DNA of 64,000 nt, from NCBI GenBank assembly GCA_028284195.1, contig JANQSE010000006.1:620001-684000 (forward strand), read 5' to 3'. Source of the stretch: Balneola sp. Lineage in GTDB: Bacteria > Bacteroidota > Rhodothermia > Balneolales > Balneolaceae. The translations under genes and the position numbers were made by a program. This document shows positions 5,037 to 35,700 of the stretch, one piece after another; within the stretch, counting starts at the first letter, position 1, and every line of letters starts with the position of its first letter. A model generated the notes under the pieces. It made no database searches and had not been told where the DNA came from. It saw nothing but the letters and a program-made list of their open reading frames with translations.

Positions 5037-6908
5037 CTAATTGTCTTTTTTAAACTCAACATCTGACTGTATTGTAAACAGCCAGGTTTCATCGTTTATT
5101 TCTTTTCTCATCCTTTTTGCAGTTTCAACTGCTTCGTCATAGTCAGAAAAACTGTAGTATGCTACATAGTTAAAACGTGTACTAGGATGAAATAAAATTC
5201 TCGATTCATATCCCTGAGAGTCTAACAGTTTTGCAAAGTTAGTTGCGTTGTTTGGCACAATAAATGATCCGCCTATTACAAAGTACTTCAGGTTCGAATC
5301 ATCTGCCGGAGTTTCAACTTCTCCTTGTTCTCGCTTAGCAAGATATTCATTCAGGTCGAAAGCCTTAGGAACCACTACCATCAATTCCGGGTTTTTGATA
5401 GGCATGCTCAATTTTTCAAGCTCTTGTTTTTGTTCGTTAGTAAGCTCCTTTTTTTCCTCTGTTGAATCGGCTTTTTGAACCGGTGTTTCTTTTTCGATCA
5501 CATCTGGTTCTTTGTTTACTATGGCTGTATCTGGCTTCTCTTCCATTTTAGTTTCCTCCGTTTTAGGAGTAGGAAGCCCTCGTTCTTCTTCCGAAATCAC
5601 ATAGTCCATTTCATTTTTAAAACGATCGCGAGCTGCTGCCAAAACTTCACCTTTAGACTGTAATTTTTCATCCATTCTCTCTGCTAAAGTTTTTTCCAAC
5701 TCAGCCTGAATGATTATAACTAACTCGTTCTCAACTTTGTCATTTGAGCTGTAACCAAATAAATATTTAAGCCCCAAAAACCAACCAGGAAGATCTTTAA
5801 GAAATGGTATTCCACGACGAACTTTAATTTCAGAAGTCCTGTAAAGCCCTGCGATTGCAGTCGCTTCACCATTTAATACTAATGTTTGGGTATCTACCTG
5901 TTGTTTATTGATAATAGTACTTACGGCATCCGGTAGTGCAGAAGAACGTTCCGCACTTATATCCAGATGAATAAAGGTAGTGTCATTGTAATCAATTACA
6001 GTAGGTGTAACGGTAAGAATAGTACCTGTGCTAAAAAATGCATCGGTTACATTACCAGCAAAATCTCTTTGCTTTACAGAAAAATCCTGACCATCCTGAA
6101 TCTTTCCCTCAACTCCATCTACTACTTTTACTGAAGGAGTAGCTATAACACTTCCTAAGTTGTTTGATTCAAATGTGCTAAAAAGAGCCTGTACACTAAT
6201 ACCAGGGCCTATTTCACCTAAGTTAACCAAAGCATTAAATACATTTTGAGAAACCTGATTCGCATTAGAAGCATTTATAGATACAAACTGATCAACAAAA
6301 GCTGTTTGTGGAATAGATTCGTTTGCACCGGCACCAACAAAATCTTGAATATTGGCAGGAACATTACTTGTTAATGTGGACCAATCAATACCTATTTCTT
6401 CTAACGCCCTTCGGTTGCCTTCAAAAAAGGTAGCATTAATTCGTACTTCCCTGGTTTCTGTGGTATGAGTGGTAGCTATTGAAGCAGGATCGACAGCACC
6501 TGCATTGGAGACTTGTGCCTCTCCACTACCGGGAGAATCTGAAATTGGAGTAACAATTATCTCATAATAATCTGGATATTCTTTAAGTGTCAACTCCCGT
6601 ATTCTAAGTATATAATTCAGAGCGTCTTTCCAGTGCATTGGAGGTAAACTAACACCAATTTCCCCTGTGTAACCAGAAAGATCTACCACGAACTTATTCT
6701 CATACTCTTGCATGAATTGATTTATTACCTCAACTGTTTCAGTAAAATCAGTGCTGCGATCAAAGGTTACAATCTCATCCGGGTTTGTGTATTCCCTGAA
6801 TGGATTCTTGGTTTGTGCCATACTATTTGAAGTAACCAAAACGCATAGCAAAGCAAGTAGCATAGCACTTGTTGAATATGTTGTGATATTTTTTGCAAAT
6901 GATTTCAT
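5037..6908 (-). CDS. Secretin (PilQ/GspD-like) with C-terminal SPOR-like domain
   Basis: Predicted outer-membrane secretin, 623 aa, forming the exit pore of the pilus/secretion machine. A Sec signal peptide ends near SMAQ (30-32). Residues about 55-120 resemble an STN/N0 domain; residues about 235-405 are the secretin homology domain, with ATPSV, VTPTV and the late signature GIPFLKDLPGWFLGLKYLF at 366-384. A long Glu/Lys/Pro-rich linker (405-535) leads to a SPOR-like alpha/beta repeat (540-615: FVIGGSFI...YVAYYSFSDYDEAVETAKRM). SPOR domains of other proteins bind denuded peptidoglycan glycan strands, so this one could anchor the pore to the wall. The fusion is unusual. Its ATG overlaps the stop of the PilO-like gene (ATGA), so it is the last gene of the operon. 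Confidence 0.85.
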   Translation of the reverse strand: MKSFAKNITTYSTSAMLLALLCVLVTSNSMAQTKNPFREYTNPDEIVTFDRSTDFTETVEVINQFMQEYENKFVVDLSGYTGEIGVSLPPMHWKDALNYILRIRELTLKEYPDYYEIIVTPISDSPGSGEAQVSNAGAVDPASIATTHTTETREVRINATFFEGNRRALEEIGIDWSTLTSNVPANIQDFVGAGANESIPQTAFVDQFVSINASNANQVSQNVFNALVNLGEIGPGISVQALFSTFESNNLGSVIATPSVKVVDGVEGKIQDGQDFSVKQRDFAGNVTDAFFSTGTILTVTPTVIDYNDTTFIHLDISAERSSALPDAVSTIINKQQVDTQTLVLNGEATAIAGLYRTSEIKVRRGIPFLKDLPGWFLGLKYLFGYSSNDKVENELVIIIQAELEKTLAERMDEKLQSKGEVLAAARDRFKNEMDYVISEEERGLPTPKTEETKMEEKPDTAIVNKEPDVIEKETPVQKADSTEEKKELTNEQKQELEKLSMPIKNPELMVVVPKAFDLNEYLAKREQGEVETPADDSNLKYFVIGGSFIVPNNATNFAKLLDSQGYESRILFHPSTRFNYVAYYSFSDYDEAVETAKRMRKEINDETWLFTIQSDVEFKKDN

Positions 6909-7774
6909 CGTTCCACCTTTAAAGTGAATAGTTCTTTTATGCCGCCTTTATTAAGATCAAAAATAACTTCTCTGTTGTTTGTGTCAATTGAATCAAGATA
7001 ACCTAAATATACTTTATCTCCCGGTCTCAAAATTTTTGTATCACCATTTTGATCAACCAAAAAAACTCTGGCGCTTGTAAACCCAAGTAATCTTGAACTT
7101 TCTACATTAACAAGGTTATCGATATTTTCAGGAACCTCATTAAGGATTAATGGTTTAAAAGGGTTGAAAACTGAAACATCAGGATTTACTCTGAATCGTT
7201 CTGATTCAGATGCGTTTGTCGCAAGTTCTTCTTTTTGATAATAGCTTTTTAGTTCCAGTGAAAAACTAATGTATTCGTTAACATCAAAATCAGAAGTGCT
7301 GGGAACGGGGTTTAAATTCACTTGTTCTATTTTATTGAGCAGCTGGCTGTTTTCAATTTTGTTAATAAAGGTAATAAAATCTGAATAGGTACTTGTACCC
7401 TTTACAGTTGAATTAATGATTCCATACAGATCTTGAGCTACAGAATCTTCAAAAGTAAAGTCATAGAAAAGTTCCAAATTTCCCTCGTTAATTTCACTCA
7501 AATAGTCATAAACATCATCAGGATTGTTTGCCTTATACATAGTTTTATCGTAGCCAAGTATGATGTCTTTTGCTAAATTATATCGCTCTAACAACGGGGG
7601 ATACTGATTACTTATATTCGTTTTTTCTGTTAAATCCTGTTCCAAAGAACTTAACTCAGTAGTTAATTTTTCTATTTCTGCTTCTTGTACAAACTTTATA
7701 TATGCAAAAGCTGCGCCTGCAAAAATAAGTAATGTAACTAGTAGAATAATGGTATTTCTTATTGCGTACGACAC
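6905..7774 (-). CDS. PilO-like inner-membrane protein with PilP-like C-terminal domain
   Basis: A 289-residue bitopic membrane protein: short cytoplasmic start, one helix (about 7-28), a coiled coil (about 29-60), a ferredoxin-like PilO-type periplasmic part, then a beta-rich tail from about 195 that begins FNPFKPL and runs through SSRLLGF, RPGDKVYLGYLDSI and ELFTLKV. That tail matches the usual pattern of PilP, the lipoprotein linking PilN/PilO to the secretin, which here seems to be fused rather than separate. It sits three bases after the PilM/N fusion gene and overlaps the secretin gene by four bases. Assignment rests on topology, order and the PilP-like motifs. Confidence 0.7.
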   Translation of the reverse strand: MSYAIRNTIILLVTLLIFAGAAFAYIKFVQEAEIEKLTTELSSLEQDLTEKTNISNQYPPLLERYNLAKDIILGYDKTMYKANNPDDVYDYLSEINEGNLELFYDFTFEDSVAQDLYGIINSTVKGTSTYSDFITFINKIENSQLLNKIEQVNLNPVPSTSDFDVNEYISFSLELKSYYQKEELATNASESERFRVNPDVSVFNPFKPLILNEVPENIDNLVNVESSRLLGFTSARVFLVDQNGDTKILRPGDKVYLGYLDSIDTNNREVIFDLNKGGIKELFTLKVER

Positions 7775-7776
7775 TA

Positions 7777-9534
7777 TTAACCTCCACCTAGCACTTGTTT
7801 TAACCCTTGAGCACTTTCCGGGGTATATATTTCTTTGTCTGCAACAATCTTAGTTACCCTGTATTTAAAAGAAAATACTTCTTGCCCTCGTATTGTGATT
7901 CTACTTACATCAAGAAGAACAGCTTCACTAAAAATATCTGCCACCATCGGAATCCTGTCTCTTTGTAAAGCTATTCCATCAATGTTCAAAGCTGTACTAT
8001 TTTGTGCGCTGGCAATCCTTGTAAACCAAATAGAATTTATGTTATCAATTCCTTTGTTGATTAAATTCAGATTTGTAGACCATGCTAATGTTCCTTCACT
8101 TAAATCGTTTAGTAACTGTAGCTGCACTTGTATTCCGGAAAGCTCGCTACTTACCCGATTATACTCCTGAACTATGGATTCTAAACTAGTGATTTGAGAT
8201 TTGGTATTAGAAATGTTGGTACTAAGACTAGTGATCTGATCTGAGTTTTTTTGATAGAAAAAATTCGTGATTGGAAAAGTAGCAACTATAAGTATTAAAA
8301 GCAGAATGCCGTGCCATTGCAGTTTAAATATTTTTTGGCGGTCTTTAATGTATTCCGGTAAAAAATTAATATCGGGATATGATTTTTTTTGAAAACCGGC
8401 ATCGGCCCATGCCATTGAAATAGCAGTAGTAAAAGAAGCAACGGCTTGCTTGTCGTGGTTTTCAGTTACAAACAAGTTTTCATTAAATTCAAAATCAGAA
8501 ACTTCTATATCCGGGAATCTATCCCTAAAAAAGGATATAGCCTCATCACCTAAAGTGTTATTACAAAGTATAAGTCTATCTAAGTTTGGAATTTCTCCCG
8601 TATCAAGTTGAAATAGAATTTTACTGAATACCGTATTAAGAAATTTTTTCGAAGATGAACCTTCTGCAATAATTGGTGAAACGATCAGTATATCAGTTCC
8701 TTCCAGAAATATAACTCTACAGTTTTCTTCTCCATATTGAATTAAAGCTGTAATGCTTTCCGGATCCAGATCATAGTTAGCTCGCAGCAGACCAATAGTT
8801 AGTGCTTCATCAGGGATAACCTCATTAAATACCAATTTACCGCTGTATACATTTCCAGCAGAAAGTAGTAACTGAAGAGTTTGTGGTTCTTCATCAACAG
8901 ATACTAATAAAAGAGAGCCATCTTCCCGAACCGAATAGGAATGATAATCTTTTCCTTTTGGATTGCCATACAAAGATTCAAGGCGGTCATCCACAATTAT
9001 TTGCAGATCTTTATTCTTAATAGATCCAAAGTCTACATCTTTTAAAATTTGGAATACCGTTGATCCCGCTGGAACATTAGTACTTAGCTTTACTCCTGAA
9101 GGATCTATCTCTGTTAAAACGTTATAGATTACAAGCTCATTACTTGTAGCAGCTTCTCCTTCCAGTTCACTCGCCGCCATATCACCTAAGTTCAAAATAT
9201 CGCCGTCATCCTTATCATCATCCAAACCAGCAAGATCCAAATCAAGATCTAACTCGTCATTTTCCACATCAAGATCATCAAGATTAAGATTTAAGTCTTC
9301 TTCAGCTTTTGGCCTATCATCAGTATTAAAAACAGAATCGTCTTCAAGCGTGTCATCAAATGCATCGAAAATCTCTTCTGATCCTGAGGTGCTATCTGCT
9401 CTTTGAACAGCTTGTGCCAACTTAATCTTATCAAGTTTTTCAAGATAGGCGGTTTTTCCTGAAATACTTATTTGTGCAATCTTAATTGAATTGTCTTCTA
9501 ATACTACACCGGTATAAAGCTTTTTACCTGCCAT
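7777..9534 (-). CDS. PilM-PilN fusion-like pilus assembly protein
   Basis: About 585 aa from an ATG at 9534; a GTG at 9552 would overlap the preceding gene by 17 bases. The N-terminus (TGVVLEDNSIKIAQIS) resembles the first strands of actin-like PilM. An Asp/Leu-rich acidic insertion (about 60-125) interrupts it, and a beta/alpha region follows to about 385. Next comes the PilN entry motif (DINFLPEYIKDRQ, near 390), a membrane helix (about 407-425), a Ser/Gln-rich coiled coil and a PilN-like periplasmic domain. In ordinary type IVa pili PilM and PilN are separate proteins that bind through this very INxLP peptide; here they are one chain. The ATP-binding residues of PilM are not obvious, so nucleotide binding is doubtful. 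Confidence 0.75.
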   Translation of the reverse strand: MAGKKLYTGVVLEDNSIKIAQISISGKTAYLEKLDKIKLAQAVQRADSTSGSEEIFDAFDDTLEDDSVFNTDDRPKAEEDLNLNLDDLDVENDELDLDLDLAGLDDDKDDGDILNLGDMAASELEGEAATSNELVIYNVLTEIDPSGVKLSTNVPAGSTVFQILKDVDFGSIKNKDLQIIVDDRLESLYGNPKGKDYHSYSVREDGSLLLVSVDEEPQTLQLLLSAGNVYSGKLVFNEVIPDEALTIGLLRANYDLDPESITALIQYGEENCRVIFLEGTDILIVSPIIAEGSSSKKFLNTVFSKILFQLDTGEIPNLDRLILCNNTLGDEAISFFRDRFPDIEVSDFEFNENLFVTENHDKQAVASFTTAISMAWADAGFQKKSYPDINFLPEYIKDRQKIFKLQWHGILLLILIVATFPITNFFYQKNSDQITSLSTNISNTKSQITSLESIVQEYNRVSSELSGIQVQLQLLNDLSEGTLAWSTNLNLINKGIDNINSIWFTRIASAQNSTALNIDGIALQRDRIPMVADIFSEAVLLDVSRITIRGQEVFSFKYRVTKIVADKEIYTPESAQGLKQVLGGG

Positions 9535-9535
9535 T

Positions 9536-10780
9536 TTAGTAATCTGCCTCACTTAAAAGTTGAACCATCTTGGTTTTGTTATTTGAGTAGTTGATTGCAT
9601 TTTCTTTTGAAATTTTGCCTCCAAGAAATAAGCGTTTCAGGTCTTGCTCTAAGGTATTCATGCCTTGTTGGCTGCCTTCCATTTGCATCTGGTAAATTTC
9701 ACCAATGTTATTATTTCGAATAGCTGCTTTAACCGATGCATTAGCTATTAATACTTCCTTAGCCAAAACACGCTTCCTGTCTAGGCTTGGCACCAGTTTT
9801 TGACTGATTACACATGTTAATACATCCGCAAGCCTGTTTCTTACACGGTTCTGTTCTTCGGTAGGAACTTCACCCAAAATCCGCTCGATGCTATCCATTG
9901 CTGATGATGTATGGAGAGTACTAAATGTTTTATGCCCTGAATCAGTAATCTCGAGAGCAGTTAAAATTGTATCTGAATCTCTAAGCTCTCCAATCACTAT
10001 TATATCCGGATCCTGCCTAAGTGCCTGGATAGCTCCATCTTTAAAAGATTCCACATCACGACCAACCTCGCGATGCCTTACAACAGAACGAATAGGTTTA
10101 TGAATTAACTCAACTGGAGAAGAAATTACAACTATATGTGAATCTACAGTTCGGTTATTAGCATCAATAATAGTATCTAATGTTGAAGATTTACCCGAAC
10201 CTGTAATACCTGTAATTAAACTGAGCCCATATTTGTAATACTTTAAACTCAGTGCTTTTGCTACTTCTGCACCTACCCCAAGAGATTTAAATGGCCGAAT
10301 GGTGTTATCGATTTTACGCATATTAAGAGCAAGATGCCCCATATCTAAATACATATCCGCCCTGAATCTTTGAGTATTCCCTTCGCCTAACTCAACACTA
10401 TATGAAAAATCTAAATTTCTATCATTATGCAGCTTTTCTCTTTGCCTGTCGATTATAATATTTAGTAGTAAAAAATCTGTTTCTTGTAAAGTAAAATTCT
10501 GATTTTTATCTGTAGGAGATTTGTCTCCATAAATTCTGTACCACACTTTTCCATCGCAACCGGGACCACCCAGGTCTATATCAGATGCTTCGTTTTTAAG
10601 CATAGCCTTTAAATAGCCATCTAATATATCTTTTAAAGCAGAACGAGCTTCTTGTGATTGTCCGTCTACAATCTCTCCCATTTTAACAAACAGCTCACTC
10701 CCGCTAGCGGCAAACGGTATCTGCTTTATAAGGGGAGCTGCAAGCTCTGTTAGTGTATGTTTTTTTTCAGCCGTCTGCAT
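9536..10780 (-). CDS. PilT/GspE-family ATPase (retraction-type)
   Basis: A 414-residue hexameric secretion-ATPase family member. Walker A is GITGSGKSS (191-199), the Walker B/Glu region is DPDIIVIGELRD (258-268) and the His box is FSTLHTS. The short N-terminal PAS-like half and the absence of a CxxC zinc motif fit PilT/PilU rather than PilB. The Asp box, usually carrying acidic residues before P(I/V)E, reads ISSPVE, a departure worth noting. Its stop is immediately followed by the PilM/N ATG. It may power retraction or be an accessory motor to the PilB-like ATPase encoded upstream. Confidence 0.85.
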   Translation of the reverse strand: MQTAEKKHTLTELAAPLIKQIPFAASGSELFVKMGEIVDGQSQEARSALKDILDGYLKAMLKNEASDIDLGGPGCDGKVWYRIYGDKSPTDKNQNFTLQETDFLLLNIIIDRQREKLHNDRNLDFSYSVELGEGNTQRFRADMYLDMGHLALNMRKIDNTIRPFKSLGVGAEVAKALSLKYYKYGLSLITGITGSGKSSTLDTIIDANNRTVDSHIVVISSPVELIHKPIRSVVRHREVGRDVESFKDGAIQALRQDPDIIVIGELRDSDTILTALEITDSGHKTFSTLHTSSAMDSIERILGEVPTEEQNRVRNRLADVLTCVISQKLVPSLDRKRVLAKEVLIANASVKAAIRNNNIGEIYQMQMEGSQQGMNTLEQDLKRLFLGGKISKENAINYSNNKTKMVQLLSEADY

Positions 10781-10873
10781 AAATACTCATTCTTATAGAA
10801 TGATTTGTGTAATAGATGATTCTTTAAAAAAATATTGTGATATACTTAAGTTGAAATCAGATTATTGTGTTTG

Positions 10874-11371
10874 TTACCAATTGTTATCGTTTAATAACCT
10901 TTTTTTCAAATTAAGCAACTGTACATTCATGTTACTAATTTTTCTTTGTTGTATTTCGATGATATTTTTTGTGAAAATGTTAAACAATTTTTCTGGTTTT
11001 TTTCGGAAAAAATTGAGCGCATCATATCTTTTATACCTTAGTAAAATACAATCACCTTCTGCAGTTACTTTTGCCATTCTACTATTCTTGCTAAAAAGAA
11101 ACGCTTCTCCTAAAAAATTTCCTTCCGAAAGTGTTGCCAGTTGGATCCCATCCTTCCATATCGCAACTTTTCCTGTAGCTACAAGATAAGCGGAATTTAC
11201 ACTCTCTGATTCATTTAAAATACTATCGCTATCCATATAGCGTTCTTCCACACCAATTTGAAGGAACTCCAATACATCTTCATAATGAAAATTTCTTAAA
11301 AGAAGCGGAGGCTCCTTTAAAAACTTCTTCAAATATTCTGGCGTTTTATCTGTGTTATCCTGCTTATCCAT
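10874..11371 (-). CDS. Cyclic nucleotide-binding domain protein
   Basis: A 165-residue protein with one CNB beta-barrel (about 30-135) and no DNA-binding or enzyme domain. The phosphate-binding-cassette pattern is kept as LGEAFLFSKNSRMAKV, with the Gly-Glu pair and the Arg-x-Ala of nucleotide-binding members. A lysine-rich helix ends the protein. It lies between the two pilus ATPase genes on the same strand, so it may be a cAMP- or c-di-GMP-responsive control subunit of the machine. That role is inferred from position only; the gaps of 78 and 93 bases on either side leave room for separate transcription. Confidence 0.8.
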   Translation of the reverse strand: MDKQDNTDKTPEYLKKFLKEPPLLLRNFHYEDVLEFLQIGVEERYMDSDSILNESESVNSAYLVATGKVAIWKDGIQLATLSEGNFLGEAFLFSKNSRMAKVTAEGDCILLRYKRYDALNFFRKKPEKLFNIFTKNIIEIQQRKISNMNVQLLNLKKRLLNDNNW

Positions 11372-11449: not shown

Positions 11450-13231
11450 TTAATCTTCTAATGTGCCTGCTATTACTTCTTCAATTGTAGTAATACCTTC
11501 TTTGATACGCTCTATACCTGAACCCCTAAGTGTTAGCATTCCCTGAGACATAGCAAGTTCTTTGATTGCACCTTCATCAACATCACTACCAGATTCAAGT
11601 ACTAATTCTTTAATTTCTTTAGAAAAAAATAATGCTTCATGAATAGCAGAGCGCCCTTTAAAGCCTGAGGTTCCACATACCTTACAGCCTACAGCTTTAT
11701 AAAAAGTAGTCTTTTCATATTCCTCATCTGTAAAGCCAATACCTTTTGCCGTTTCAATATGAGGGCGATACTCTTCTTTGCATTCATTACATAATCTTCT
11801 TATCAGCCGCTGTGCCATAACCAGATTAACAGCGTTGGCGATCAAAAAAGGTTCTACTCCCATCTTAAACAAACGAGAAACAGCACTGGGAGCATCATTT
11901 GTATGTAAAGTTGAAAATGTTAAGTGACCTGTATTTGCTAATTTAATTGCAATCTCAGCAGTTTTTAGATCACGCATCTCACCTACCAAAACAATATCCG
12001 GGTCATGACGAAGAATACCTCTTATTGATTGGTCGAAGGTCATATGGTTACTGATTTTTAACTGACGAGCACCTTCAATGATATATTCTACAGGTTCCTC
12101 AATGGTTAAAACATTTTTTGTTGGATCAATTACTGAGTACAAAGCTGCAACTAAAGTAGTAGATTTACCACTACCTGTGGGGCCCGTTATAATTACAATC
12201 CCAGAAGGTTGACTAATCGATTTCACAAAATTTTCTTTTGCTACTTTTTGCAATCCCAGCAGATCCAAATCCCGGATTACTTTTCTATCATCAAGAACCC
12301 GAATTACTGTAGATTCAAATTTCCGATCGTATTGATTTCCTACGATCGGCATGATAGAAACACGGTATCTAATTCCAATACCATCAATTTGTCGCTGTAT
12401 AAACCCATCCTGAGAAGCATCTCTTTCAAAACGGTCAACATTTCTGGTCTTATCTTTAATTACTGCAGAAATTGCTTCCGGCTTTACATTTTTCTGTTGA
12501 TACCAGAGTTGTAGTTTACCATCGATTCGAAATCTTATATCAGTGGTGGTAGGCCCACTTGGTATTATATGCAAATCACTAACTCCTTGGCGAACCGATT
12601 CTACTAACATACCTTCTACCAGAGAATTAAGCATACTTTGATTAATCTCTGCATCAATCTCTTCTTCATCAATACTCTCTTCTTCTTCAGCGCCTACTAA
12701 TTGGTTTTCTTCCTGGTCAATTTCTTCCAGAAGATCTAAAAATTCATTTTTCTGCTCATATACATTATTAAGGATACTCTCTATAAAATCATACCTACAA
12801 TAAACAAGTTCTGTATTTTTAAAATTAAGTTTTTGAATTACATTTTGAATATTAGGATCAGAAGGATCTGCAGCTGCTACAGTAATTGCATTGTTCGCTC
12901 TATGAAAAGGAATAGCTTTTAGTACTACAAGTTCGTCTATAACGTCATTATCGATATCTTCTATATTTTTTTTTATATGCTGAATAATCTCTTCTGAAAC
13001 CGCTTCAGCACCTTCAAGAACTTCCCGGAAAGCATAAATCTCAGCAACTTCTTTCATTATTGTATGCCTGTCAAGGCCAATATCTTGAAAGAGAATTTGT
13101 CCCAATCTTCTGTTACTAGTCTCTGGTTCGAGCTCCAAAATCTCCAAGGCCTCTTTTAACTGATCTTCAGTGATGATTTTCTTTTTTACAAGAATTTCAC
13201 CGATATGCCTTCTAACATTTATTTTACCCAT
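11450..13231 (-). CDS. PilB/GspE-like assembly ATPase
   Basis: A 593-residue assembly ATPase. Residues 1-165 form an N-terminal T2SSE_N/MshEN-like region (RRHIGEILVKKKIITEDQL...). An acidic linker (166-195) follows, then the motor: Walker A GPTGSGKST (350-358), Asp box TIEEPVEY (377-384), Walker B DPDIVLVGEMRD (410-421), His box FSTLHTND. The zinc site is present as CNEC (481-484) and CKVC (516-519). MshEN-type domains often bind c-di-GMP, but I cannot confirm the ligand residues. It should drive polymerisation of the pilins encoded upstream, and abuts the PilC gene with no spacing. Confidence 0.92.
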   Translation of the reverse strand: MGKINVRRHIGEILVKKKIITEDQLKEALEILELEPETSNRRLGQILFQDIGLDRHTIMKEVAEIYAFREVLEGAEAVSEEIIQHIKKNIEDIDNDVIDELVVLKAIPFHRANNAITVAAADPSDPNIQNVIQKLNFKNTELVYCRYDFIESILNNVYEQKNEFLDLLEEIDQEENQLVGAEEEESIDEEEIDAEINQSMLNSLVEGMLVESVRQGVSDLHIIPSGPTTTDIRFRIDGKLQLWYQQKNVKPEAISAVIKDKTRNVDRFERDASQDGFIQRQIDGIGIRYRVSIMPIVGNQYDRKFESTVIRVLDDRKVIRDLDLLGLQKVAKENFVKSISQPSGIVIITGPTGSGKSTTLVAALYSVIDPTKNVLTIEEPVEYIIEGARQLKISNHMTFDQSIRGILRHDPDIVLVGEMRDLKTAEIAIKLANTGHLTFSTLHTNDAPSAVSRLFKMGVEPFLIANAVNLVMAQRLIRRLCNECKEEYRPHIETAKGIGFTDEEYEKTTFYKAVGCKVCGTSGFKGRSAIHEALFFSKEIKELVLESGSDVDEGAIKELAMSQGMLTLRGSGIERIKEGITTIEEVIAGTLED

Positions 13232-14569
13232 CTAAATACCGGAATTCGGCTTAATAACAGCGGATTCTGATGAAACAACAGTAATACCTACTAATGCTAT
13301 CATAATAAATAAATTAACAAAAAGGCTGATAGTATCAACAACCGATTGCATTTTATAGGTAGTTTGAACTTCATAATACTCAGCTAATTGCTTGGCATTT
13401 TCTCTTAATGACCCTGATTCAGCTCCTAATCTAAACCTGCTAATAGCTGTTCGTGTAAATACACCTGTTTCTTCCATAGACTCGATAAGCCCTGCGCCAT
13501 CTTTAAGCATGCGTTTTATGGCAATATCTTTAATCTGCTTTTCCATATAAGTATTTCTGCAGGCTTCGCTGGCAACTTTTATCACTTCAATGTTTTGTCC
13601 AGACCCGCTGTACAAAGTGTAAAATACTCTTGCAAAAATCTCAATACTTGTTTTATGCAAAAGATCTCCTATAACGGGTATTTTAATTATATAACGATCA
13701 ATCAGAAGTTTACCCTTTACTGTTTTACCAAAATAAATAAGTCCTGCTACTGGAGCTAAAAAACTTACCAGCAAGAGTATCCAGTTATCCGAAAGCCAAT
13801 AACTAATGTCGAGTGTGGTTGCCGTCATCGGAGGGAGTTCAATTCCCATTTCAACAAAAAGTTCAGCAGTTGATGGAAAAATATACCCTACATAAAATAA
13901 AACAACCCCGATAACAGCTACTACAGTCACAGCAGGCATCATCAAAGAGCGTTTCATATTTTTCTTAAACTCGGCATCTCTTTCTAAAAACTTGGCAGTA
14001 CTTTCAAAAACCAATCCCATATTACCCGAAGTGGATGCTACACTAAGCATGTATGCTGCAAATTTCCCAAATATAGCTTCGTGTTTTCCATAAACCTCTG
14101 AACCTTCTTTACCAGCTTTAAGATCTTTCTGAATAGTTTTAATAACCTCTTTCATTCTTTTATTGCCAGTATCTTCATATAGAAGATTGAGAATTTCGTC
14201 AAAAGTAAGTTGCTGATTTAATAAGTCGGCCGATAAACTTATGAAAGTAACAACTTCGCTATGCGGTACACCTCCCTGAAAGTTAAAAAGCTTTTTGTTT
14301 ATGCTAACAACTTCATAACCAAGTTTAACCAGTGCTTTTTCTACTTCTTCTTTTGTATAAGCTTCTTGCTCTCCATTTAACGCAGGCTTACCGAGTCGCC
14401 TGACTCTATAAAGAAAAACAGATTTCTCTTCTATCGATTGAACTTTAAGGCCATTCGTCTTAGAAATCTTATCTACTTTAATTTGAGCATCTTTTTTTGT
14501 GTCTGCTTCAAATTCTTTTTGAATTATCTTACCGGCATTAGAAACAGCCTTTAATCTAAATTGTGCCAT
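13232..14569 (-). CDS. PilC/GspF-like inner-membrane platform protein
   Basis: A 445-residue type II secretion F-family protein. The first 100 residues are soluble and contain two short repeats like those found before T2SSF domains. Two GspF domains follow (about 105-230 and 305-430), each ending in membrane helices, with a third helix pair between them. Recognisable segments include GKFAAYMLSVASTSGNMG and FRLGAESGSLRENAKQLAEYY. It is the membrane base on which PilB turns and pilins are added. It begins 18 bases after the second pilin gene and ends where PilB begins, consistent with one transcript. Confidence 0.92.
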   Translation of the reverse strand: MAQFRLKAVSNAGKIIQKEFEADTKKDAQIKVDKISKTNGLKVQSIEEKSVFLYRVRRLGKPALNGEQEAYTKEEVEKALVKLGYEVVSINKKLFNFQGGVPHSEVVTFISLSADLLNQQLTFDEILNLLYEDTGNKRMKEVIKTIQKDLKAGKEGSEVYGKHEAIFGKFAAYMLSVASTSGNMGLVFESTAKFLERDAEFKKNMKRSLMMPAVTVVAVIGVVLFYVGYIFPSTAELFVEMGIELPPMTATTLDISYWLSDNWILLLVSFLAPVAGLIYFGKTVKGKLLIDRYIIKIPVIGDLLHKTSIEIFARVFYTLYSGSGQNIEVIKVASEACRNTYMEKQIKDIAIKRMLKDGAGLIESMEETGVFTRTAISRFRLGAESGSLRENAKQLAEYYEVQTTYKMQSVVDTISLFVNLFIMIALVGITVVSSESAVIKPNSGI

Positions 14570-14587: not shown

Positions 14588-14953
14588 TTAATTCCAGGTT
14601 AAGCCAGATTTAGTAACTGTGGCCGAAATTGTATCTTTCCGATCCCGGGTTACGGCAGATATAGTAAAAGATTCCGTACCTCTAGTCAAAATAAAATAAA
14701 ATCCATTGAAACCGGTAGTATCTATTCCTAAATCTTCATAAGAAATGCTAGCGAAGCTACCGCCCCCGCCTCCTAATATAACTGGTTTTGCAAAATATGA
14801 TTGAGCTTGAGTTGCTCCTAGCAGCATTTCTTGTCTAATTGCATCCTTATTCGATTCGTTATTTAATTCACCAAAAGTTGTTACTGCTACGGCAATAGAG
14901 ATACCAACAATTAACATTACTAAGATCGTTAGAAGCAATTCTTTATTTGCCAT
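14588..14953 (-). CDS. Atypical pilin-like protein, second copy
   Basis: A 121-residue pilin paralogue of the protein encoded just upstream. A five-residue polar start (MANKE) leads straight into a 22-residue hydrophobic helix, then a polar helix containing KDAIRQEM and AQSYFAKP, the motif VILGGGGGSF, and a small beta domain ending SGLTWN. There is no canonical prepilin site (Gly then Phe-Thr-Leu-x-Glu). It shares with its paralogue the DAxRQ...AQxYFxKPxxLGGGGxSF block and the GLTW tail. It lies beyond an intrinsic terminator, so is probably made in smaller amounts and may be a minor subunit. Homology to type IV pilins is inferred from topology and operon. Confidence 0.72.
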   Translation of the reverse strand: MANKELLLTILVMLIVGISIAVAVTTFGELNNESNKDAIRQEMLLGATQAQSYFAKPVILGGGGGSFASISYEDLGIDTTGFNGFYFILTRGTESFTISAVTRDRKDTISATVTKSGLTWN

Positions 14954-14975
14954 GACATTGAATCAATTTAAACTT

Positions 14976-15001
14976 AAAAAAAAAGCCCCATGAAGGGGCT
15001 T
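14976..15001 (-). terminator. Intrinsic terminator between the two pilin genes
   Basis: A 7-bp perfect stem (AAGCCCC/GGGGCTT, 14983-14989 with 14995-15001) with a 5-base loop is followed on the minus strand by a run of about nine T. It lies 28 bases after the first pilin gene and before the second, so it probably limits read-through into the assembly genes while the major pilin is made in excess. Confidence 0.85.
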
Positions 15002-15028
15002 ATAATTTTATATAACTAATTACCAGAA

Positions 15029-15472
15029 TTAGTTATTTGCAACCCAAGTTAGTCCTGATGGACCAATTGTTCCTTGTAAAGCATTTGAACCGGCTTCAAG
15101 AGATGAAGTAAGTGACAATGGACCATCAGCTCTTGATGATGGTATTGCTGTAATAGTAACGGTAGTGTCATTAGTAGAGATTACATAATGCCCGTTAGAG
15201 TTAAATGCAGTTAATCCATCACCAGATACATCATTAGTAGGGAAAGCTACTTGGTTGAAAGTAATACCATTGAAGCTATTTCCACCTCCACCAAGCATTG
15301 TTGGCTTCATGAAGTAACCTTGTGCAGAAGAAGCAAACTGAGCAACGTCTTGACGAACAGCGTCAAGGTTCGCATTATCAGATGCACTAGAGAAGGTATT
15401 AATAGCAACTACAGTTGCAATACCTACGATAATTGTTACTAGAATAACTAGAAGTAATTGTTGTTGTCCCAT
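15029..15472 (-). CDS. Atypical major pilin-like protein
   Basis: A 147-residue protein, probably the main filament subunit. MGQQQ precedes a hydrophobic helix (about 6-27), followed by an amphipathic stretch with LDAVRQDV and AQGYFMKP, then the TMLGGGGNSF motif and a Ser/Thr/Asn-rich globular part ending SGLTWVANN. If a leader is removed it is only two residues (after Gly2), and the mature position 5 would be Leu rather than Glu. An AGGAGA ribosome site lies five bases before the ATG (15478-15483). As first gene of the locus, with its own terminator, it should be strongly expressed. The same layout occurs, from memory, in hypothetical proteins of other FCB bacteria. Confidence 0.75.
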   Translation of the reverse strand: MGQQQLLLVILVTIIVGIATVVAINTFSSASDNANLDAVRQDVAQFASSAQGYFMKPTMLGGGGNSFNGITFNQVAFPTNDVSGDGLTAFNSNGHYVISTNDTTVTITAIPSSRADGPLSLTSSLEAGSNALQGTIGPSGLTWVANN

Positions 15473-16955: not shown

Positions 16956-17063
16956 ATAGATTATTTAAGAACTTTTCTTTCAAGTACGATAAATTTATAT
17001 GTAACTTTACGGCCGTTTAAAATATCTTTTAAAAAGAAAAAAATATCCATGAAAGGAAAAGCC

Positions 17064-18536
17064 ATGAAAACATATCATCTGTCACGCATATTCCTATTAT
17101 TTTCTGTTGCTGCTTTTTTAGGTTGTGAAAGCCCCAGCAGTAACGATGTATCCATATCAGGACGAGTTGTAAACAATAGCTCTGGAGAGCCACTCAGTGA
17201 AGCAGTTGTCGTAATAACAGCTCCCGCTCAATTTCAAAACGAATCTAAAATTACTGGAGCTGATGGATCTTTTCGATTTTCGGGATTAAATGTAAATGAA
17301 GCTACAGATATCAGCATTGAAGCTCGTAAAACTGGGTTTGACAGAGTTTCTATTACGGTACCGGCCACTCCCGGACGGGATATTAATGTAGAGCAGCCGA
17401 TTGCTTTAATTCCTGAGGATACAGGTGGCGGCGGAGACAATGGCGGCGGCGGTGTTGCAGGGCCATCTACAGGTCCTGCTCAATTAATCTTAACCAGCGT
17501 TCCTGTTCAGGCTATAAATATTGCAGAAACCGGAGATCAAATTAGTGCGGCTTTTACATTTCAGGTTCAGGATTCTGCGGGTAGAGCACTTACTATTAGT
17601 AACCCTGCAAGGGTTAACTTTGATATTATATCAGGCCCTGGAGGCGGAGAACAGGTAACCCCTTCCAGTTTAACAACAAATGCAGCTGGAGAAGTTACAA
17701 CTGCTCTGTTTAGTGGTAATACAGCCGGACCCGTTAAAATACAAGCAAGCATTACCCGTGAAGATAATGGCCAGGTTATTCGCTCAACCCCTGTACTTAT
17801 TGCTATTCATGGAGGATTCCCGGATCAGAACCATTTTAGTATAACAATGGAGCCATTTAGCATTGAAGGGTACAACTTTAATAATGTAAGGAGTAATGTT
17901 ACAGTGATTGTTGGTGATCAATTCAGTAATCCTGTTAAACCCGGAACGGTTGTTTATTTTTCTACTTCAGGTGGCATCATACAAGGTTCCAGTCAAACCA
18001 ATGAAGATGGAGTGGCTAGCGTACAACTGATTACTGCTGCCCCCCGCCCTTCAGATAATATAACTGGAAGTGGAGGGCGTCTTGGTTACGGTACAGTTAC
18101 TGCAAGAACAATAGATCAAAATGATAATGCTATACTGGCAACTGCAGAATTTCTTTTTTCCGGAATCCCCCAAACGCCGATAGTTACCAGAAATGGCGGC
18201 GCAAACCCGGGCGATGGTTTTGCAATTCCACCTAATGGTGGGGTAAGTTTTGAATATACCGTAACCGACCAAAATGGAAACCCCTTGCCATCTGGAACAA
18301 TGTTTAAAGTGGAAGTTGGTGAAGGCTTGGATGCTACCGGAGACGTTGAATTTGAATTAGGTGATTTCTTATTCCCCGGCGAAGGTGCTACTCAATTTTC
18401 ATTCTCGGTTAGTGATATCGATGAAGATGCCAGCGATGTTGGTGGAACATCAATCAAAATTATAGTTACAACCCCCAAAGGAGTTTCAGCTTCAACCTCT
18501 ATTGAAGGAACAAGGGCAAAACGGATAAAAAATTGA
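17064..18536 (+). CDS. Lipoprotein with carboxypeptidase-regulatory-like and Ig-like (Big-1-type) domains
   Basis: A 490-residue surface or periplasmic lipoprotein. The ATG at 17064 is preferred to that at 17049 because AAAGGA lies five to ten bases before it; this gives a clean signal with lipobox FLGC and Cys21. Residues about 30-120 form a CarboxypepD_reg-like beta sandwich (ISGRVVNNSSGEPLSEAVV). A Gly-rich hinge follows, then two or three Ig-like domains of invasin/Big-1 type (TTNAAGEVTTALFSGNTAGPVKI; TNEDGVASVQLITA; TVTDQNGNPLPSGT). Such proteins are usually adhesive or structural. The gene ends four bases before the next one, suggesting co-transcription. Confidence 0.78.
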   Translation: MKTYHLSRIFLLFSVAAFLGCESPSSNDVSISGRVVNNSSGEPLSEAVVVITAPAQFQNESKITGADGSFRFSGLNVNEATDISIEARKTGFDRVSITVPATPGRDINVEQPIALIPEDTGGGGDNGGGGVAGPSTGPAQLILTSVPVQAINIAETGDQISAAFTFQVQDSAGRALTISNPARVNFDIISGPGGGEQVTPSSLTTNAAGEVTTALFSGNTAGPVKIQASITREDNGQVIRSTPVLIAIHGGFPDQNHFSITMEPFSIEGYNFNNVRSNVTVIVGDQFSNPVKPGTVVYFSTSGGIIQGSSQTNEDGVASVQLITAAPRPSDNITGSGGRLGYGTVTARTIDQNDNAILATAEFLFSGIPQTPIVTRNGGANPGDGFAIPPNGGVSFEYTVTDQNGNPLPSGTMFKVEVGEGLDATGDVEFELGDFLFPGEGATQFSFSVSDIDEDASDVGGTSIKIIVTTPKGVSASTSIEGTRAKRIKN

Positions 18537-29731: not shown

Positions 29732-32700
29732 TTACTTATCAAAAATAGTTCCCACATTAACTTCACCTTTAGCATTCTTAAATGCTGAATATTTATAGGT
29801 CTTTCCATTTACGGTAACAGTAAATCTTTTCCCTTGGTTAATCGGCAAACTATTGTATCGTGCTTTTAAATCTTTTGCAATGGCATCTGCTACTTTCACA
29901 CCATCTGCTCCTGTTTCATGTAAATGTCTAAAAGCATGATATGATTGATTCTTATTTCTACCAAACACAAGTTTAAAACCACCACTTCCTGTCTTAACAA
30001 ACATAGAAATACCTTTACCGAGTATATATCCACCAGCAATTCCGATGGCAGCGTCTCGCCACCATCCAAATATGATATCAGATGATGTCTGGTAAGTTAT
30101 ATTGCCTTTACTATCAGTTGATACTTTGACTTCCCCGTTAAAAGCATCATATATGTTATCAGCTATTGTGTTTGCCCACCTTCGATACTTTTTTCTATCT
30201 GTAATCAGCGTAAAGCTATTCTTATCATTTCTTACACCATCCCAATCAACCACACCATCATCATCTGTAAAACTATCAAGGATGTCTTGAGTGGTATATA
30301 CATTCAGTGCATTATCTTCTCCATCATCAAATACAGCTTTTCCATTAACATAGTATATAGTTCTACCATCTGGATCAATTGCGTTTAATGGGTTATTTCC
30401 TACATAGGCATATGGGCTCATTTCTGGATAATTATCGTAAAGCGGATCCACCTGCAAGAACCGGGCAAGAGTAGGATCATATCCCCGGGCAAGCATATAA
30501 TCTATGTTTATGCCGGTTTCCTTGTCCCGCTCGTGTCCTGTATACTTATAGGCGTAATCAGAAGTGGAAGACCGGTCCGGCATTTCCAGTCCAAACGGGT
30601 AGTAGTCAAAGCTCTCCTCGTGGTTGCCTGCATCATCCACAATGGCCCGGATGCTGCCCAGGTGGTCTTTGAGGTAGAACTTGCTGGCTATAGTAGCCAG
30701 CGGGGTCCCGGAAAGCTGTATTCCGTAGCCTTCCCCGGAGGTATAGGCGTAGCTATATACCCGCACATAGTATCTGCCGGGTGTTACCGAGAAAGAACTG
30801 CTCAACGGACGCATTCCCGAGGAGGATTTCACCGTGGTCAGCCCGCTGTTCTTGAATTCTATCTGATAACTGGTGGAGGTGTTGGAGGGCTGGTAATAGG
30901 CGTGGCTGGTGAGGGTGTAGTTTACCGTTCCGGCGTTGGTTATATCAAAGTAGTACCAGTCGTAATTTTGCCAATCCAGCACCCCACTGGTTTTTCCTGC
31001 CTTTATCCGCCCATCGGCGGAGCCCGAGGTGTTGTTATTTTCGCTTTCAAAGGTGATGGTACCGGAGGTATTAAAGACTCCCGAGGGGTTGCTTACCTCG
31101 GCCACGCCTTCCACACCCAGCCCCAGGATGTTAAACTCCACATCTCCGGCGTTGTTAATGGTAGCCAGGGTTTCGCTTCCGTCGCGCAGGTAGTAAGTCC
31201 AGGTTCCGCTGGAGTATTCTTTCAGTATCCGGTTTCCTGAGGAGTTGTACAGGGCGTCCAGCGTCTGGGAGCCGGTATTGACGGTGGAGGGAAGATTGAA
31301 CTCATTGTAGGTAATGCTGGTGAACTTCCCGGCCTGGCTGGTCATATTGCCGTTGGCGTCGTAGCCGAAGGAACCGGTGTATTCTGCGTCCCAGTCAATG
31401 CTCCCTGTTGTTCCGGCAAATTCGTCTATTTCGGATAGCTTATTGGTTCCTGCATTATAGAAATACTCCAGGTAATCAATGTAACTTCCGTTTTCATCAT
31501 ACCGGGTAAGGGATTCAATGTTGCCTTGTTTGTCATATCCCAGGTTATTCACTTTGAATTTGTTGCTGGCTATCCAGCTACCGTTGTAGTTTTGGTAGCT
31601 GGCGCTTTTTAACCGGTTGAGGTTGTCGTAGGTGTGTACGTATTTGTAGCGATTGTGCCCGCTGGCTACGGCTTGCAGCGGGTTATAAAATTCTGATTCC
31701 TGGATATTGCCGTTATCGAAGTAGGTGTATTTTGCCGAAAACGGGTAGCTGGCGGATGCCGGGTTGTTGATTCTGGTTAAGCGCCCTTGTATGTCGTAGG
31801 TGTAGTCCATGGCGGTGCCGCCGCGGAAGGTTCGTTTCTTTAGTTGTCCGTCGGCATGGTATTCATAGGTTACTTCTGCTGGTTCGGTGTCGGCGGTTCC
31901 GTCCATAGTCAGGGTTACTTCGGTTAACTGGCCCAGATCATTATACTCATAATGATGGTACAATGTCTTACTGTTAAAGGTGACTTTGCGGCGGGTTACT
32001 TCTCCCTGGCGGTTGTAGGTGTAGGTGATGGTTCCTTTCCAGGCGGTTTTAGCTCCCATATGGACTTCTTTGGTTACCACTCTGCCTTCTTCGTCATAGC
32101 TGTATAGTTCTAACTGCCAGGGATTGGTGGTTCCTGCCGGGCTGTTGGTGCCTACCCGGTAGATGCCGGCTACCATTTTGCCTTTGGTGTTGTTGGCTGT
32201 AAACCCGGTAATGAGCGAAGAGCTGACCTGGTTCCAGGGAAAGACCGATGTACCGGGCTTGGCGTCATAGGCATTGGCTCCGTTTATGTTTGCACTTGTA
32301 CTTTCAAAAGCCTGGCTGCTATTGCCGTCTAAAGCGGTAAAACTTCCTGTATAGGGGGCAATCCCGGTGGTTTTTATGCGCCCGAGCTCATCGTAGGTGC
32401 TGAATGCTACTTCATTATCATTGGCTTGTTGTTGAGTCTGACTGTAGCGCAGCAGTCCGGCTTTGTTGTAGGCGTATTTAACGGTGCCGAAGTCGGTGCC
32501 TGTTTTGCTGATCATGTTGCCTTGCTTGTCGTAGGCGTAGGTGGTTTTCCAGTCGGAAGCGCTACTCCCGCCGGGAGGGCTGAAGTAATTGGGATGGCGG
32601 GTTTCGGTGAGCTGGCCCAGTTCGTTGTATATATTTTCGGTGATGGCGTTAATCCCGGCCGGATCGGCTACCACCCGCCTTGTTCGCCCCCAGCCGTCGG

Positions 32701-35700
32701 TATAGGTTTTAACTTTTTTGCCATCGGGATCGGTGGTTTCAGTGAACGATAGTTTCTCTGATCCTACGGTTTCTACCCCATAGGCCTGCACCACAGATCC
32801 GTACGTGCTTTTGCCTCCCATGGGGATGGCTTCTTTAAGGCGGGAAAGTGGTGTTTTCTCGTATTCATTTTCGGCATAGGCGTAGCTGCCGTAGGCGGTG
32901 TTTGCCCGGCTTGCGTAGTCGTTTACGTACCCGAGCGACGAGCCTGTTTTGCTGAAGGGGCGGTAGCTTTCCCAGGGGCGGCCCAGGCTGTCGAAGTTAC
33001 TGGCGCTTACTATTACATTGCTGCCTTTTTTGGTTACGGTTTGGATGGCGCGGCCTAACCCGTCGGTGTATTCCCGGGAAGTACGGGTGGATGATCCTGT
33101 ATAAGAATCTGTTTCTACCCAGTTGGGATTGGTGGGACTGAACCCGGTTCCGGTGAATGTATAGTTAAATTCGTTGAGGGTTTGCCCGGCATTGTTCTTG
33201 ATTCTTTCCAGACGCTGATGGGAGTCGTATTCAAAGGTTTTTTTGTTGTCTTCGGGATCTGTTAATTCTGTGGCATTCCCATAGGTATCGTATTTCACGC
33301 TGTAGCATAAATCATCGGAAGCGCAGGGGGAGGAATCGAAACTGCCTATTTTTTTCTGGATGCCGGTGAGATACACCCCCCGGGTGTTGTTTACGGCATT
33401 TGCTGCTGTGCTCGCATTGGTAAACGGGCTGGCATTACTGCCGTAGTAGTATTTGGTTGCCCCTCCGTTGGCATCTTCTGTCTCTGTGGGATTACCGTAG
33501 GCGTCGTAGGTTTTTACCTCGGACAGAAGCACCGCATTACTCGTGGAAGGAGCGCTTGTTGTACTCCCGCTTTTCCATTGCCAGGTTTTATGCAGCCTCC
33601 ATGTGCTGCCCGGAGAAATGGAGGAGGAGTTGGTCCACTGCGTCCAGTTCTTGGCCAGGGTGGTGCTTCCGTTCTTTACTTCTACCGAGTAGGGCTGGGC
33701 GAACATATTCGCTGTGGCCATGCCCGGGTACTGCTGGTGGGCGTAGGCGTAGTGGGTGGTGCGTACCTGCCCACCGGAGTTGGTTTCGGCCTTGGAGATC
33801 AGCTGCATAAACCGGTTACTTCCATAGCTGCTGTCGGCATAGGTGTATTCGTTGATCACTTCAACAGGAGTTGCCCCGCCGTTAAAGACTTTAAGCGTAT
33901 CGCTTTTCAGGTGCTTCCACTGGTCATTGATCGTGTACGAACGTTGTACATAGGTGGTGTCTTCCGAGCCATTTAAGCCCGGTTCAATTTTTCGTTCCAA
34001 TTCCATGCCTTTCGCCCAGCTGTAAAAGAGAGAGGGGTAAGTTAAAAAACCTATTTTGTATTCATAATCCTGTGAGCGTGATTCTACCAACCCGCCTGTG
34101 TTATTGAATACTTCTTTTTTAACCAGGTTGCCCGAATAGGCATAGGGGATCTTTTCAAAATGGTGTACCACCTTGCCGTTTTCGCTTTGCGAGGAAATGG
34201 TTTCAGTTACTTTTTGGTAGCCCAGGTGGCCGCCTCTCACATCGCCCAGCTGGTAAAAGGCACTGGGTAGTATCTCATGATAATTGCACGTATAATACCC
34301 GTTGGTATCCGGGTCAGGAATAATGGAACTGCCGGTTTTTACGTATGTGGGCTCTCCGGAAATGGATCCGCTGGAACGCCCGCTGCCGTCGTCCATGTCG
34401 TAGGTATAGTTTTTTACGATATCATTGACACTGGAAACACCATCATGGAGTACGATCTTTTTTACCCGCATCCCTCCTGCTGCAATCTGGCCGGACTGTG
34501 CCGAGCCACCTACAAAACTATAATCATTGCCTTCGTAGGTAAACTGCGCGCTCCCCCCGGTAGGATAGGTGATCTTTGTTAACATACCATCGGTGGTGGG
34601 AGAAGGGTTCTGGTTGGCACCGGTATAGATTAGGGTTCCAAAGTAGGAGGTAGTGGGCACAAAGTGGGTGTTGGATGTTTGCCCGTTGTAATACCCCCAG
34701 TAGTCCACGGCGTAGGAGTTATAAGCAGGCAGCGACGATGGGTCATAGTCAAATTCATAGGCAGGCAACGCAGCAGTGCCTGTATGGTCGTATTCCCGAA
34801 TGCTGTCTAACCGTAATCTTGATGAGGTGCCTGCAAAGTATCCATGGGTAAAGCGCACTTCTTTCAGCAAGGCGCCGTTTTCATAAACCTTTATATTGGA
34901 TAAGCGTCGTTCATTGGGCAGATCGCTGCGGGAGGCATGGTTGAATTGAATATAGGTATTGGGATTTTCTGAGCTCTTTATTTTTGTAAGATAGGTTACA
35001 AAGTTGCTTACATCGGTCATGGTTTCCAGCTCTCCGTCCGGCACGGCGTTGCAGGGAACCCCGGAGTTTTCGTAGATGATCCGGCCGTGCGAGAAGGTAG
35101 TTTGTGAGCTGAGATACGAACCGGTTGTGTATTCCAGGATAATATCGTCGGTGGTTTGGGGATGGTCGATTTTTTCCAGGTACCATGCGGTGTATGCCGA
35201 ATGAGAAGAGCTTCCTGCTTCGTTACCGCTATAGGAAGAATTTGTGATCGTAGTAGTTTGTTCTGTCTTACCAAAGGTGTACACAATACCTTGCTCGTCG
35301 GTTACCTCCCAGGAGGTAATGGTATAGCCGGATTTGATGGGTTCTATTTTTACTTTTTGCTTGAACTGTAACCGAAAATGCCCGTCCATAAATATCATTT
35401 TCCCGGAAACGGTTGGGGTGGAAATGTAAAATTCGTCGGGCTCCGCATCATAATCTCCTTCGGCTATCTGGTCCAGTATTACTTTGCCGGCGTGGGTATT
35501 GGGCTGGGGAAGCGATGCCTTTAAACTGCTTGCGGTATGGATGTATGCTTTGTTGTCTTTATCGTCGGCTATACCTCTGATGACCCGCGTGATGACTCCC
35601 CCGGCCTGCAGGTTCCAACCCAGGCCAACCCAGCTGGCCCGCTCCTGTACTTTCAGCCCGGTGCTTTGGTAGTTCAGGGTAACGGGCAGCGAAATGTTTC

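Follow-up and report, generated by a model that had tools for sequence, protein, structure and literature searches.

The window, by which we mean the whole stretch of 64,000 nucleotides analysed here (Balneola sp., GenBank assembly GCA_028284195.1, contig JANQSE010000006.1, positions 620,001 to 684,000), carries two paralogous pilin-like genes on its minus strand, with a hairpin between them:

15029..15472, minus strand: leaderless major-pilin-like protein 1, 147 aa, beginning MGQQQLLLVILVTIIVGIATVVAINTF... (MGQQQLLL...); first in the operon
14983..15001, minus strand: terminator-like hairpin with a T run, between the two pilin genes (pattern match only)
14588..14953, minus strand: leaderless pilin-like paralogue 2, 121 aa, beginning MANKELLLTILVMLIVGISIAVAVTTF... 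(MANKELLL...)

The hairpin may perhaps act as an attenuator that keeps expression of the major pilin above that of the machinery.

The two proteins are 43% identical in alignment and share the motif pairs DAVRQ/DAIRQ, AQGYFMKP/AQSYFAKP and LGGGGNSF/LGGGGGSF (protein 1 first) and the sequence GLTW, all of which had been listed in a preliminary description of this DNA. The same description had reported that both proteins go from a five-residue polar start straight into the hydrophobic helix and that neither has a class III cleavage site, and both observations proved correct. Each protein begins M-(G/A)-x-x-(Q/E) and enters the pilin helix directly. At E <= 1, neither was matched by Pfam N_methyl (PF07963) or by a different pilin family, although PF07963 does score above its cut-off for two further pilin-like proteins encoded in this genome. 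The sequence AGGAG precedes the ATG of the 147-aa gene, and in both genes a stop codon lies in frame 4 codons 5′ of the ATG; no leader can therefore be encoded for either protein. A missed upstream start, which the description had considered, is refuted for the window genes by these stops, and neither product has the hydrophilic leader ending in Gly and the N_methyl motif that make up a class III signal peptide.

The AF2 model of the 147-aa protein (pLDDT 91.1; 29 sequences) consists of a helix spanning residues 2-55 and an antiparallel sheet, so that the predicted model shows the long N-terminal helix on an antiparallel sheet that is the pilin fold. Its 11 best VIA structural matches were pilins or MBP-pilin fusions (Z 8.2-5.9, the best being 4noa at Z 8.2), and the first non-pilin row stood at Z 4.0. 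Foldseek of the model against the PDB gave weak matches only, none below E 0.001, and all matches below E 0.3 in a PDB HMM search were pilins or geopilins. The pilin identity was drawn from the VIA rows, the HMM matches and the operon context, and structure families missing from the VIA lists were not taken as absent. The 147-aa protein is predicted to be a classic type IV pilin.

The register of the helix bears on the question of Glu5. Residue 4 of the model aligned with mature residue 1 of the full-length pilins 3sok and 1ay2, with the row for full-length 8tum starting elsewhere, and in the PDB HMM search several pilins had their mature residue 6 paired with residue 9. From the HMM and structural registers it follows that the canonical Glu5 corresponds to residue 8, which is Leu in both window proteins (and in 205 of the 215 relatives described below, Glu being found there in none), and that the canonical Gly-1 position is occupied by Gln3 in the 147-aa protein and by Asn3 in the 121-aa protein. 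The preliminary description had stated that Glu5 is lacking in the first protein. Counted from the initiating Met, this holds for the MGQQQ protein, and the MANKE protein does have Glu at residue 5; at the canonical position, both proteins lack it.

The remaining genes of the operon encode what appears to be a type IVa-like machine:

13232..14569, minus strand: PilC/GspF inner-membrane platform (Pfam T2SSF 2.9e-29)
11450..13231, minus strand: PilB-like assembly ATPase (T2SSE 1.4e-95, MshEN; TIGR02538 PilB 437 bits, below the cut-off of 675.65)
10874..11371, minus strand: cyclic-nucleotide-binding-domain (cNMP) protein (PF00027 8.6e-12)
9536..10780, minus strand: PilT-like ATPase (TIGR01420 9e-92, 307.9 bits, just below the cut-off of 319.1)
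7777..9552, minus strand: putative fused PilM-PilN, 591 aa (AF2 pLDDT 77; actin-like domain, long helix, C-terminal domain)
6905..7774, minus strand: PilO/PilP-like inner-membrane protein, 289 aa (by position and one N-terminal membrane helix)
5037..6908, minus strand: PilQ-like secretin (PF00263 3.2e-27, 95.6 bits, over the cut-off; TIGR02515 3.3e-27)

The PilB and PilT ATPases and the PilC platform are present, with clear homology and NCBIfam equivalog cut-offs missed, and the two T2SSE matches in the window's genome both belong to this operon. The 591-aa protein gave no convincing sequence match. The six best VIA rows for its model were PilM chains, with 5eou at Z 24.7 over 288 residues (rmsd 3.1; model residues 11-400), so that the PilM/PilN alignment complex is recognised through its PilM part; we read the protein as a PilM-PilN fusion, the PilN part being suggested by the architecture of the model. 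No Pfam family scored over its cut-off for the 289-aa PilO-like protein, and the secretin PilQ was identified by PF00263. Most of the loci listed, as far as the stretches reach, share the gene order pilin(s)-PilC-PilB-(minor pilins, cNMP)-PilT-PilMN-PilO-PilQ. The cNMP-domain protein sits in the Balneolales pilus operon and is possibly a regulator of the machine; at another locus (L262), the gene for a similar-looking protein (8247-8636) separates the two pilin genes. Elsewhere in the window, a putative lipoprotein with carboxypeptidase-regulatory-like and Big_1/invasin-like domains is encoded near the pilus operon on the opposite strand (17049-18536), and a 2061-aa ORF occupies 29732-35917 on the minus strand.

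One could envision that the two proteins are not filament subunits, being instead membrane-anchored or part of a short periplasmic pseudopilus. In favour of this, the anchors are left uncut, and the T2SS models for ATPase and platform give good scores with this operon as well. Against this stand the PilT-like ATPase, the PilM-PilN fusion and the PilQ-type secretin encoded in the same operon, with an order conserved in many lineages, and the pilin fold of the predicted model, and we regard this explanation as highly unlikely.

The start of the protein is conserved among its relatives. We collected 215 distinct pilins with an N-terminal start from the 264 loci examined; two further matches had no start codon at the N-terminus, one being cut off and the other (L241) having ATA in place of ATG. 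This last, a Calditrichota pilin gene at about 5268, has GGAGG ahead of it and adjoins a normal ATG paralogue, and its ATA may be a rare start codon or a sequencing error. The N-terminus is MGQQQ in 204 of the 215, MANKE in 3 and MGSQQ in 3, and five others occur once each. Residue 5 is Q in 210, E in 4 and T in 1. Residue 2, for which the preliminary description had asked whether it is always Gly or Ala, is Gly in 210 and Ala in 4, with Ser as the single exception. A scan seeded with MGQQQLLL contributed 48 of the 215, and outside it the MGQQQ start is found in 158 of 167 pilins, the search profile itself having been built from such proteins. Clustering at 40% identity over residues 26 to the end placed 213 pilins (2 were dropped for length) into 30 clusters. 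Mean frequency of the commonest residue was 0.91 for residues 1-8, 0.65 for residues 9-25 and 0.40 beyond. With 28 of the 30 cluster representatives and 204 of the 215 relatives sharing it, the MGQQQ start is, on these sequences, not a product of chance. Codons 2-8 of the pilin genes vary synonymously, and therefore selection acts on the protein; a constraint on the DNA at the 5′ end of the gene was rejected for the same reason. LGGG is also widely conserved, one Gly being invariant in the 30 representatives and its two neighbours having frequencies of 0.83 and 0.87; the GLTW tail is not widely conserved among the relatives.

These sequences also bear on the possibility that a leader has been missed, either through an upstream start or because PilD lies in an assembly gap. 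An upstream in-frame start codon was found in 6 of the 215 relatives and an open upstream frame of at least 20 codons in 16, and the window's genome is in 19 contigs. Opposed to this are the stops in both window genes and an in-frame stop mostly only a few codons upstream of the start across the 215 relatives; for PilD, four pilin-bearing genomes assembled as single contigs gave no A24 match even at E <= 10 (see below). We consider the chance that a leader or PilD was missed in this way very nearly negligible.

Of 244 genomes of the class, 157 had a match to the pilin profile, as had 131 of 394 genomes in a phylum-wide draw. The MGQQQLLL-seeded scan of named genomes gave 537 matches, 447 of them encoding relatives, and the best 80 include records of Balneola, Gracilimonas, Fodinibius/Aliifodinibius, Rhodohalobacter, Kryptonia, Ignavibacteriae, Melioribacteraceae, KSB1 and Calditrichota. 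Relatives of the leaderless pilins, as recognised by sequence, reach into several bacterial phyla. MGQQQ pilins were also seen on contigs labelled Patescibacteria and Actinomycetota (L233, L236), where we suspect mis-binning rather than transfer. In one genus (g3; G022, L135/L136 and others), no pilin gene lies within 1.5 kb of PilC, and the profile located leaderless pilin genes elsewhere.

To our knowledge, A24 is the only known prepilin peptidase family. In the window's genome (G000; 98.5% complete), its profile PF01478 gave no match at E <= 0.001, and at E <= 10 the single candidate was a 13-bit piece of a 530-aa frame. Within the order, PF01478 was found in 10 of 128 genomes; an orthologue of the window PilC occurs in 87 of the 128 (counted from the PilC matches), one more genome having only a divergent PilC, and the peptidase was undetected in 78 of these 87. 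In the class, 19 of 244 genomes were positive, one of them below the family cut-off. Both PilD and leaderless pilins were present in 15 of the 157 pilin-bearing class genomes, and PF01478 was undetected in the other 142. The phylum-wide draw gave 51 positives among 394 genomes, 15 of them among the 131 that bear the pilin, leaving 116 of 131 in which the profile detected nothing; many of the remaining 36 positives belong to one family (f28) in which the peptidase is present and the leaderless pilin absent. Over the phylum draw, PilD and the leaderless pilin showed no anticorrelation (Fisher p 0.63), because genomes without PilD are the norm in that sample, and the argument rests on the 116 of 131.

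Two other causes of these absences were considered. A search of 15 chosen genomes at E <= 10 returned nothing in 7, including the single-contig G040, G092, G129 and G167, and sub-threshold scraps only in another 7, G003 holding the sole true PilD. Loss of PilD to incomplete assembly was rejected as a general cause on the strength of the four clean single-contig genomes. Insensitivity of the profile was likewise rejected as a general cause, given that it was positive in 12 of 14 control genomes as well as in the class and phylum genomes counted above.

Where PilD does occur, it appears to have another partner. Nine of the 10 order genomes with PilD also carry a second PilC, about 21-25% identical to the window PilC, and PilD adjoins a canonical GFSLTE prepilin in the three loci examined (L032, L033, L034); G003 has a third T2SSE ATPase near its PilD. 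By this gene neighbourhood, and in the cases examined, PilD belongs to a second and canonical pilus system. A second PilC without PilD was found in three genomes, G000 (the window's), G032 and G121. In the window's genome, it lies with three pilin-like proteins bearing class III-like leaders (L035, G000:C4:434500-454000, about 7531-10852), two of which are PF07963-positive, and neither a third T2SSE ATPase nor a prepilin peptidase was found there to go with it. This second system looks like a remnant, and the window's genome, still holding three pilin-like proteins with canonical leaders, may have lost PilD recently.

The minor pilins extend the observation beyond the major subunits. X-, V- and W-like minor pilins, the letters being assigned by size, order and N-terminus, are encoded between PilB and PilT in the relatives and, in the window's genome, at G000:C4 about 405254-407619 (L285), and they have no or almost no leader (MGRSLIFSVIGL, MSDYSDLILLMGA, MNSLLIGYVIGG). 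Their L035 counterparts carry leaders (MYLFDDIRNKEEG-SALI, MSNESG-YSLVE and MVQGINKEEG-FTLVE). All 15 of the genomes tested gave a PilX-like match; neither M1 nor G2 varies among 11 aligned PilX-like proteins that are 16-29% identical to the first, and 24 of 25 rows (some being the same protein from overlapping loci) start M-G, the L282 row having no Met there. PilW-like minors are often bulky at residue 2 (MN, MI, MK), and removal of Met therefore cannot be general. Some PilV-like minors elsewhere keep a Gly before a helix that appears to align with the canonical one (MGTG-QTLIT, L226).

According to the preliminary description, either a divergent peptidase cuts a two-residue leader or the subunits insert uncleaved. 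In its broader form, the first option would be an ultra-short leader (MG, MN or MGTG) processed by a peptidase that does not resemble family A24, with maturation kept and the enzyme replaced. Gly2 is near-invariant in the majors and present in the PilX-like minors compared, whose MG-RALL start presumably resembles the canonical G-xALL start, and since some PilV-like minors keep a Gly before an FTLIE-like start, a leader of 2-4 residues cut by an unrecognised enzyme is still conceivable. However, the register of solved pilins (3sok, 1ay2 and the HMM pairing) puts Gln3, not Gly2, before the cut, and PilW-like minors have Asn or other residues at the would-be site. The residue before the canonical start, with the register of the minors set by eye, is Gln in majors, Asn in many PilW-like proteins and Gly in PilX-like and some PilV-like proteins; this difference by subunit argues against a single Gly-specific cutting enzyme, whereas the Gly of the PilX- and PilV-like proteins speaks for one. 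No unexplained membrane protease was present in the five operons listed, and at E <= 1 Peptidase_A22B (presenilin-like) was undetected in all 11 genomes searched, with what is a weak profile (3 of 14 controls match, none over the cut-off). We therefore think that a replacement enzyme is unlikely. With A24 undetected in the window's genome and in most genomes that bear these pilins, Gln3 before the cut, and residues at the would-be cut that differ between subunits, uncleaved subunits are the better supported of the two options, and subunits that are uncut or trimmed by methionine aminopeptidase are likelier than a single Gly-specific cut.

Among known systems, the machine is like the type IVa pilus (PilA/PilB/PilT/PilC/PilMNOPQ/PilD) in its platform, its assembly and PilT-like ATPases, PilM-PilN, secretin, pilin fold and X/V/W-like minors, but unlike it in that its pilins lack the class III leader and the canonical Glu5, most of the genomes have no PilD, and PilM is fused to PilN. 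The canonical second system (e.g. G003, L032/L036/L037) is found in the same order and sometimes in the same genome, with a homologous PilC and X/V/W-like minors; it differs in its GFSLTE-type prepilins beside PilD and in the divergence of its PilC noted above. In a passage of their review, Berry & Pelicic (PMC4471445) count the prepilin peptidase among the few universally conserved proteins of type IV filaments and name the Nanoarchaeota as the exception. The pili of those organisms resemble the present ones in having the machinery with the peptidase undetected, but they are archaeal, and that passage states no loss of the pilin leader. Denise et al. 2019 (PMC6668835) describe MSH pilus loci without a peptidase gene in genomes that have one elsewhere; the present loci are alike in lacking a peptidase, but here it is usually undetected genome-wide. 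A paper on Nanohaloarchaeota (PMC9563170) mentions clusters without a prepilin peptidase. Bacterial type IV pilins that lack a leader were not found described in the open-access papers searched.

What can be read from the genes is that the majors and three kinds of minor pilins have no leader, that A24 is undetected in most genomes, that the order of the machine is conserved, and that the canonical Glu5 is lacking; the machine is by its sequence type IVa-like, but its pilins have no class III leader and most of the genomes that encode it no detectable peptidase. In our interpretation, the product of the operon is quite probably a type IVa-like pilus that can retract, and its subunits, synthesised with no class III leader, would enter the filament with no prepilin peptidase involved. 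The mechanism that we propose is that the short N-terminus stays in the cytoplasm and the helix is inserted co-translationally by SRP/Sec. Methionine aminopeptidase prefers small second residues, and in the majors and the PilX-like minors it would probably remove Met1 and expose Gly2. PilC and PilB would then extract a subunit carrying two or three extra residues before the usual first residue, the side-chain amides of Gln3-Gln5 would set the subunit contacts in place of N-methylated Phe1 and Glu5, and PilT would power retraction.

More broadly, we put at about 0.68 the probability that a lineage of type IV pili spanning several phyla has dropped the prepilin peptidase along with the class III signal peptide, undergoes at most maturation by methionine aminopeptidase, and polymerises via the conserved GQQQ without Glu5 or N-methyl-Phe1. 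These bacteria seem to have given up a step that is regarded as near-universal in the building of type IV pili. If this is true, then prepilin cleavage is not required for the assembly of type IV filaments, and a conserved and widespread machine without the peptidase would demonstrate that such filaments can do without cleavage, N-methylation and Glu5. The purpose of the prepilin cut would become testable, and pilin finders based on the leader would be missing the pili of these phyla.
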